From the NCBI GenBank assembly GCA_963082975.1, contig OY720350.1, positions 43,354,734 through 43,418,733 on the forward strand: a stretch of 64,000 nucleotides of DNA. The letters run 5' to 3'. The notes under the pieces are model-generated. The model was given only the letters and a program-made list of their open reading frames with translations. It did no database searches and was not told the DNA's origin. Within the stretch, counting starts at the first letter, position 1; the number at the start of each line of letters is the position of its first letter. The stretch comes from Labia minor (Eukaryota > Arthropoda > Insecta > Dermaptera > Spongiphoridae). Both the position numbers and the translations under genes were made by a program. This document shows positions 1 to 18,778 of this stretch, in pieces.

Positions 1-3000
1 ACCCACTAAAACCCCAATCACACTTTAAGTAAGGCCTATGCTATATAGTAATCTCATCTTTTAACTCATAATTCTTTAATCATTTCCTATTTTATCGCAT
101 AACCCTTATGTTTCATCAATCTCTATTCCAAGACATTTTTCCAACGTTCTATTAATATGTTATTTTACTGTGGGAGGAAGTTAGCCTCTCACCCAACCTC
201 CTATTCTTCGGAGGACCATTTCTTCCGCTTTCGTCAGCCCTGACCTTGCTTCCCACCGGGGTTGGTTACCGCGATCTTCCACAAGGTTGCTCAGGTTACC
301 AATGAACACCACCAAGGAGGTGAAAGTCGGAATTGAGTAGGAGAGGCTAAGTCACACTAACAGGATACAGTGTCATATATTGCGCATCACTACCCCATTT
401 GGTGTTTCCATATATACATATTTTAATTTAATACCTTTCCAAACAACATTTCAAGTATAACATTGATTCTCAGGTGGTAATAGAATCTTCAAATTTTTTC
501 CATTCTTAACTCTTGAAAAAGCTACATAAAGCATTCCATGCATGAATACAGAGGTTCTAAGGTCAACTCCAACAAATCATCTTTTAACTCATAATTCTTT
601 AATCATTTCCTATTTTATCGCATAACCCTTATGTTTCATCAATCTCTATTCCAAGACATTTTTTCAACGTTCTATTAATATGTTATTTTACTGTGGGAGG
701 AAGTTAGCCTCTCACCCAACCTCCTATTCTTCGGAGGACCATTTCTTCCGCTTTCGTCAGCCCTGACCTTGCTTCCCACCGGGGTTGGTTACCGCGATCT
801 TCCACAAGGTTGCTCAGGTTACCAATGAACACCACCAAGGAGGTGAAAGTCGGAATTGAGTAGGAGAGGCTAAGTCACACTAACAGGATACAGTGTCATA
901 TATTGCGCATCACTACCCCATTTGGTGTTTCCATATATACATATTTTAATTTAATACCTCTTTCCAAACAACATTTCGAGTATAACATTGATTCTCAGGT
1001 GGTAATAGAACCTTCAAATTTTTTCCATTCTTAACTCTTGAAAAAGCTACATAAAGCATTCCATGCATGAATACAGAGGTTCTAAGGTCAACTCCAACAA
1101 AATCAAATGTTTGACCTTGTGCTTTATGAATGGTTATTGCGAATGCTGGTCTTATAGGGAATTGATGCCTTTGAAGAGTACATCCAATATGTGCTTTATT
1201 TGAATCAAGGGTAATTCTAGGAAGATGAACCTCTTTACCCGATTGTTCACCAGTAATAATTTTGGCTTTTAATATATTATTACACATATCATTAACAATC
1301 AACCTTGTTCCATTGCATAGGCCTTCTGCGACATCTAAATTTCGGAGCAACATAATAATTGTATTTTTTTTTATTTTCAATTCATGAGGTGGCAAATCGG
1401 CTATTTCAATTGAATTGAGAAATTCTGTCGTTAATTGTAAAGCTCCTTCAGGCTTATCTTTGACCGTGTCATAACTTTTATAAATTTTATATTCTCCAGG
1501 TAGTTTATCAATAATATCAATATTAATTTTACTGACATCTTTATTCAATGGAGCAAGTATAGCTCGATCTTTCATTGTTTCATAATTTCTATTTGCTAGA
1601 CAATTTCCAAACACTTCATCAATGAGATTGCCATTAGAAATCATATAATCAAGAAGCTTGATTTCACCTATGGCATTTGTTGCTAGCTCTCCATTCCCAA
1701 GTTTCAATAAATAATTCCCAAACTCTATTTCTCCAGGATCAATACGCATATTTTCATTCAATGAAAAAAAATAAAAGTGTTTCCAGAGATTACTATTTTT
1801 TATAGATAAATCTATTAACTCACTTTTATTAGCTCGAGGCTGGACAGGAAGACACTGTCTGAAGTCACCCCCTAGAATCATAACTTTTCCTCCAAATGGC
1901 AAGTTTGATTTTCCAATTGAACGTAATAATATATCCATATTATTCAATGCGTATTTTGGTAGCATAGGTGCTTCATCCATCAAAAAGACATCAACTTCTG
2001 CCAATTCAGCTGCTTTATGAGATCCTGGTTTAATATTAGAAATTGATTCTGATGTTAAAGGCACCCTAAGTCCAAATGTTTTGTGGGATGTTCGCCCTTC
2101 TGGAAGTAGAATTGAAGCAATTCCAGTAAATGCCATACATTTTACTTTTAAATTTAGACCATTTATAATATAATATAAACTTTTATAAATAAAAGTTTTC
2201 CCTGTGCCACCAGGCCCATCAATAAAAAAACATTTTTGTCTACATCTTCTATCATTAACAACTTGTAAAATGTTATCAACTATTTCTATTTGCCTTCCTT
2301 TAAGTAGTTGATACATTCGTTGTCCTATATTATGTGATTCATTTGTGTTTATCATTTCTCGATAGCCCTGGTTATCATAATCTTGTATGTCGTCCATTCC
2401 AAAATGTTGAACCCAATAACGAAAATTTCTACCTTCTGTTGCTTCAGTATTCAATTTATAAGCAATGATTCTATAAGCACGTTGAATTGCTTCTTCAACA
2501 GAATTTTCTGTTTGCACTGTTTCTCTGATAAAATCTTCTGCTAAATCTTTCTTGAACATTTCCCACAAATTCTTTGGATTTTCAGGAGACCCAAATATCA
2601 GAATTTGTGTGAAGAGAGTTCTCATTGCTCTAGGCATCTTCGACAAAGCAGATTCTCGTAGGCCTTCTATCCATTGTTGATCATCATAAGTAAGTCCTCT
2701 AGCTAAACAAACTTGTTTATATGTTGCATATCGAATGCCATTAAATGTTAAAAGATCTTCAAAGCTTGTTGCATTCTTAACATGAAACAATAACATTCTT
2801 AAATGAAAAAGTTCAGGTTGAGAAATGAAATTAACATTATGTATTCTACCGATAACTGACATTCGGCGAATTCTTTGCACCCATTTACTTGATTTTCCAA
2901 TCCATTTGAAGTGTTCTGGAATTTGCCAATAATAATGATATGTTACCTCTAAATTTCTATCTTCAGCATTTTTCAGCTCTTTGTTATGCAAAAAATAAGC

Positions 3001-18600: not shown

Positions 18601-18778
18601 ATTAAGAAATTAATAATGAAGCTGTATGTTTCAAGAGATATCATCAATAAAACTTAATTTTTCTTTATAAATACTATATCTAGTGTGAATTTGAAAAAAA
18701 TCGTTAGAGCGGTTTTTGAGAACCATGATATATAGATAAATACATATATACAATTTTAGCTAGCATAATAAGATAAGA
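15674..18778 (-). mobile_element. Outer Helitron, 5' portion
   Basis: Reverse complement of 5887-8996 (leader plus first three small exons), aligned without gaps except for one extra 6-bp TTTTTG unit in the inner copy's T-rich tract near 8455. Its 5' terminus at 18778 also reads TCTTATC preceded by a host A on the minus strand, matching the inner copy's terminus in a different flank. From 18779 rightward the sequence is unique DNA. The copy is separated from its coding body (1-5886) by insertion of the inner Helitron. Confidence 0.88.
15687..16177 (-). CDS. Helitron gene, outer copy: exons 1-3
   Basis: Partial gene. Exons by homology to the inner copy: 16177-16013 (Met start, 55 codons), 15936-15850 and 15773-15687 (29 codons each). 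Exon 1 encodes a basic then acidic stretch ending in PSTSRQ...LEINE. Exons 2 and 3 each contain two PSTSRQ motifs and end in LEINE. The next intron begins at 15686 with GTATATATATTT and is cut at 15675 by the inner Helitron. Exon boundaries are inferred from repeated GT...AG pairs and constant phase. Confidence 0.55.

Follow-up and report, generated by a model that had tools for sequence, protein, structure and literature searches.

The window analysed here, a stretch of 64,000 nt of the Labia minor genome (assembly GCA_963082975.1, contig OY720350.1, forward strand), very probably holds a Helitron1-type, Helraiser-like element that transposed, in the opposite orientation, into an A^T site of a near-identical copy of itself. 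The inner copy occupies positions 5887-15673 of the + strand (9787 bases, from 5′ TC to 3′ GTAC), its limits being set by a 5′ end shared with the other copy and by the empty site that its excision restores. The outer copy, on the - strand, is visible in two parts, i.e. its 5′ part at 15674-18778 (5′ TC at 18778, host A at 18779), which is the inverted match of 5887-8996, and its continuation at 1-5886, which, once reverse-complemented, agrees with the inner copy base for base. An inverted insertion of a Helitron into its own copy had been claimed in a first-pass annotation of this DNA, and it is supported here by the shared 5′ nucleotide, the exact A^T target and the domains of the transposase. 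The locus thus presents a copy within a copy, with an exact empty site and with a 3′ end of the inner copy whose completeness is putative.

The window was compared with itself by BLAST, and the figures for the arms were taken from the 80 longest matches listed, all of more than 100 bases. One inverted pair, 1-5887 / 14883-8997, was 100% identical over 5887 bases, and in a string comparison the reverse complement of 8997-14883 was exactly 1-5887; the other pair, 5886-8997 / 18779-15674, also inverted, was 99.775% identical over 3112 columns. The coordinate sums earlier proposed for the two axes, 14884 for the first and 24665 to 24671 for the second, both hold, and the step of 6 in the second corresponds to a single 6-base gap within a TTTTTG-type run. 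Among the matches listed, no repeat pair outside the Helitron locus exceeded 640 columns, and the identities of these pairs were 67-94%; the arm matches are, given their length, far beyond chance. On the + strand the order of the blocks is A′ (1-5886), B (5887-8996), A (8997-14883), X (14884-15673) and B′ (15674-18778), and the block junctions are defined to within one base. B-A-X forms one unbroken element on the + strand, and a second copy, on the - strand, is made up of A′ and B′; the A′ arm is already under way where the window begins, and the X part of the outer copy, its final ~790 bases including the 3′ end, would fall to the left of the window.

Both copies start with TCTTATCTTATTATG right after an A, at 5887 (+) and at 18778 (-). 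Precisely, the inner 5′ end reads TCTTATC at 5887 and the outer 5′ end reads TCTTATC at 18778, the latter following a host A in unrelated sequence, hence the 5′ end of the element is defined twice, because the identical first nucleotide is found in two unrelated contexts. String comparison and alignment therefore confirmed, for both copies, the 5′ ends reading TC after A that had been noticed before, and the two copies share the 5′ TC of Helitron1 elements.

When 5887-15673 was removed and 200 + 200 flanking bases were joined, the resulting 400-base site was found exactly within the inner copy, starting at 8797 or 8798. We considered 750 combinations of neighbouring cut points, with 60 bases per side, and the exact empty site was restored by two of them, differing by one shared T; since this T is common to both junctions, each boundary of the inner element can be moved by one base. 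According to the string comparison and the join test, the left junction (5886/5887) is A / TC and the right junction (15673/15674) is GGTAC / TAAATATATATAC, and the uninterrupted counterpart of the target lies at 8985-9010 (+), where the break is at 8996/8997 or 8997/8998 and the 400-base match is exact. The exact meeting of the two break points at 8996/8997, as originally claimed, is thus borne out within a shift of one base. As read from these junctions, an insertion between A and T, with zero duplication or loss of the target, is the reading that fits Helitrons; for the inner copy the exact empty site gives the A^T insertion without target duplication of Helitron1, and of the target of the outer copy the A on the 5′ side alone is visible in the window. 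The AT dinucleotide is common in the element (12.5% of positions), hence the A^T match is by itself weak evidence, and what weighs most for the insertion is that the two copies share their first nucleotide and that the target is restored exactly.

The two visible parts of the outer copy, joined and aligned to the inner one, gave 8997 columns with 1 mismatch and 6 gap bases. The substitution is a C/T at element position 2252, and both differences between the copies fall in the B arms, with 0 differences in the 5887 bases of the A arms. Since two places differ between the copies, we are dealing with two sequences and not with one molecule written twice. A single substitution in ~9 kb suggests a recent event, barring gene conversion between the arms or polishing of the reads.

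By its predicted protein, the element is a Helitron. The main ORF (P0001) encodes 1619 aa from the ATG at 9079 and matches the Pfam families Helitron_like_N (9.3e-56), PIF1 (5.7e-49), STPRs (1.4e-18) and Pif1_2B_dom (5.1e-18), and its residues 90-1601 align to PDB 7lcc, the solved structure of the bat transposase Helraiser (K1068Q), with an E value of 1.7e-278. The HUH motif is HMH at residue 688, the Y2 motif is YLYKYIYKG at residue 843 and the Walker A motif is GPGGTGKT at residue 1197; Y727 and Y731, the tyrosines given for the Rep domain in PMC5876387, correspond in the alignment to the YLFKY of 7lcc. A Rep domain with HUH and two tyrosines and a Pif1-type helicase are hence found in one protein, as in Helitron1. 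Helitron2 elements and Helentrons are marked by asymmetric terminal inverted repeats, and Helentrons add an endonuclease domain; no endonuclease domain was found among the 8 Pfam families matched by the transposase. From the open frame we infer that the Helitron would be autonomous.

Two repeats involve the ends of the transposase frame. A 69-base repeat of 6.3 units at 9126-9559 (inverted counterpart at 5325-5758) encodes the 23-residue STPR repeats of the transposase N-terminus, and this part matches the solved chain 5d23 of a fibroin-modulator-binding protein at 2.9e-10. A tandem duplication of ~525 bases (13783-14307 and 14308-14830, 99.0% identical; inverted counterpart at 54-1101), present in both copies, spans the 3′ end of the transposase frame and leads to a second C-terminus downstream, 92% identical over 49 residues. 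Apart from this duplicated C-terminus, no additional transposase-like coding turned up in the 3.2 kb on the upstream side or in the downstream portion of the element.

The exon-intron model was read from the frame and the splice sites only, and the domains were located in the main exon. For the inner gene, at 8494-13938 (+), the predicted exons are 8494-8658, 8735-8821, 8898-8984 and 9061-13938, separated by three introns of 76 bases each, all GT-AG; exons 2 and 3 are in phase and 87 bases long, and the main exon continues their frame. A tandem array of 163-base units (3.0 units, 8588-9076, +), each of which can be read as an exon with an intron, contains the target site. In the outer gene, the main exon (946-5823, -) and the predicted exons 1-3 (16177-16013, 15936-15850 and 15773-15687, together spanning 15687-16177, -) are identical to those of the inner gene, and the first three are separated from the main exon by the inverted inner copy. 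The break is 12 or 13 bases into the predicted intron 3 of the outer transposase gene, an intron that corresponds to 8985-9060 of the inner one; given this position, impairment of the outer gene is probable, but splicing across the enlarged intron is conceivable. The inner gene keeps an uninterrupted frame.

The 3′ end of the inner copy reads GGGGTCCCGGTAC and is followed by the target sequence, as obtained by string comparison. This is the sole 3′ junction within the window, GTAC/T as against the CTRR/T of canonical Helitrons, and the end best fits a placement at GTAC, the foot of a predicted hairpin (15643-15674, +) in whose outermost pair the T next to the element (15674) takes part. The predicted hairpin sits right at the element end, as against a position ~10-12 bases inside it in Helitron1, and its support is modest, since in the DNA fold of 15560-15690 (z -1.88) 10 of 200 shuffles folded at least as well. 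Hence, of the "full-length" Helitron first described, completeness at the 5′ side stands and completeness at the 3′ side is putative, the junction being GTAC/T and not CTRR/T and the outer 3′ end lying beyond the window. The GTAC end and the flush hairpin, unlike CTRR and the 11-base spacing of Helraiser, are points against the insertion reading itself.

If the insertion is accepted, we give roughly even chances to a different account of this end, in which either CTAA (15673-15676) is the end of the family, the target having lost three bases (TAA) upon insertion or later, or a 3′ truncation has removed the true end, which would lie further on, from the inner copy. The junction sequence reads GGTACTAA, and CTRR is the canonical 3′ end of Helitron1 in the descriptions of Helitron termini given by PMC5148889, PMC4778049 and PMC6544945; however, the empty-site join was not found when the element was cut there, and the base that follows is A, the usual one being T. 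A weak hint in favour of CTAA is that an internal hairpin segment has GGTATTAATAT where the element end has GGTACTAAATAT, but this likeness may be due to chance in AT-rich DNA. As for truncation, the results reported in PMC4778049 include truncated and read-through products of Helraiser. Near-identical hairpin segments, AGGGTCGAGC[G/A]ATAGCTCGGTGT, occur at 15084-15106 and 15560-15582 in the 3′ part of the element and are possibly earlier 3′ ends passed by read-through. We consider unlikely a combined reading in which the lineage ends at the hairpin foot GTAC without CTRR, with a Helraiser-like transposase recognising a different 3′ end, and in which the inner copy also came from the outer copy's own circle.

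Large palindromes are typical spots for assembly errors, and an artefact of assembly or sequencing, in which a fold-back (hairpin) read or a wrong join of repeat copies made the palindrome, would agree with the 100% identity of the A arms across 5887 bases and with a window that begins inside an arm and so hides the outer 3′ end. The 0 differences in these arms, which could also be obtained by consensus polishing, are therefore a point against the insertion. We nevertheless regard an artefact as very improbable: a fold-back has one axis and an arbitrary break, whereas the locus has two axes, one of its breaks is at the first nucleotide of the element (the same as at 18778), the join restores the A^T target exactly and the copies differ in two places. 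A fold-back was rejected on these four grounds. Least credible of all is a rearrangement without transposition, in which inversion or recombination of adjacent inverted copies gave the order A′ B A X B′. Recombination occurs easily between long inverted repeats and the blocks could flip later, but by block-order reasoning flips of A/A′ or B/B′ never yield a complete inner element plus an intact outer frame, and inversion, which we rejected in its simple form, gives no reason for the one complete element and the exact empty site observed. The view that neither a fold-back nor a simple inversion explains the locus, put forward in the first-pass annotation, is accordingly supported by the two axes and the exact restoration of the target, and its ~18-kb quasi-palindrome with a clean transposition explanation is supported at the sequence level by the arms and the restored target.

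On the insertion reading, the steps would be those suggested by the published work on Helraiser (PMC4778049, PMC5876387). The transposase would nick a donor copy at TC, one strand would be peeled off while the donor is re-synthesised, a circular intermediate would form, and the circle would integrate into AT-rich DNA, between the A and the T of an AT dinucleotide, duplicating none of the target. Since the donor is kept on transposition, an element can enter a sister copy or return into its own donor; here either of these may have happened, with a sister copy or the outer copy as donor, and the two differences between the copies favour neither.

Relatives were sought in several collections. A scan of the viral_contigs collection with the transposase protein gave nothing, as did exact scans with an 18-base piece of the 3′ hairpin and with the first 20 bases of the 5′ end, and in the genome_contigs scan 2 stretches matched the pattern, neither of which encoded a relative. 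The transposase matched 10 plasmid records and 282 phage records, all with < 60% identity and with query coverage short of 80%; all 10 plasmid matches and the 20 phage matches listed of the 282 are within the helicase part, from residue 1131 onward, and are therefore uninformative on the Helitron itself. In the collections searched, a second 3′ end of the family was not found, and in the rest of the window neither the 5′ end nor the terminal hairpin piece recurred with up to 4 substitutions. Rfam gave 0 matches at gathering scores, and no Pfam family was matched with E up to 0.05 by any of four short translations, of which one came from the element and the others from different parts of the window.

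Other repeats are present in the window. Interspersed repeats at 22816-23197 and 38157-38267 resemble bases 516-760 of the element (77-82% identical), and this may reflect a fragment of a host repeat captured in the 5′ part of the Helitron, or old relatives. The stretches 44048-44647, 27463-27714 and 20527-20712 match their own reverse complement with 79-85% identity and are older palindromic repeats, and 20548-20693 is related to 27516-27661 (94%, from the comparison of the window with itself). The open stretches at 48696-49070 (-) and 61488-62176 (+) resemble, by eye, what we take to be remnants of mariner-type transposases; the three translations tried for them matched 0 Pfam families.

Helitrons leave no target duplication, hence exact scars of their insertion are hard to prove, and this locus offers a clean natural test of both A^T insertion and the position of the 3′ end. 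An 18-kb near-palindrome of this kind is also easily dismissed as an assembly error. Among known systems, the closest considered is Helraiser/Helibat1, a bat Helitron1, whose Rep/helicase protein aligns over residues 90-1601 and which, as described in PMC4778049, likewise has a 5′ TC after A, an A^T target and no target duplication, with a preference for AT-rich surroundings. It differs at the 3′ side, since Helraiser ends in CTAG and has its 19-base palindrome 11 bases in from that end (PMC4778049), and the exact junction found here is GTAC at the hairpin foot, and in the gene, which here has a predicted upstream array of exons and a stretch of STPR repeats.

As for nesting, we consider the locus a clear new instance of an event of an already known kind, Helitron self-nesting. 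Its novelty is low, because nested self-insertion has been discussed for Fusarium oxysporum, where it is said to give nested or composite elements, also in opposite orientation (PMC5148889, legend of Fig. 8), and for maize, where nested Helitrons were proposed as the source of elements with multiple termini (PMC3288121); nested copies are, in these accounts, a proposed origin of Helitrons with multiple or mixed ends. The tandem head-to-tail arrays mentioned in PMC5876387 also bring several copies to one place, whereas the copies described here are nested and inverted. Both the Fusarium and the maize cases are, like this one, a Helitron within a Helitron, but the nested path in maize is hypothesised in the passage concerned (PMC3288121). 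The locus contributes a readable case, in which target, counterpart and scar are found together, and possibly a non-canonical 3′ end. In the Fusarium example, as presented in PMC5148889, a non-autonomous element is nested in a putative autonomous one of Helitron2 type, whereas in our locus the two copies are near-identical and share their transposase frame, hence the scar can be read to the base.
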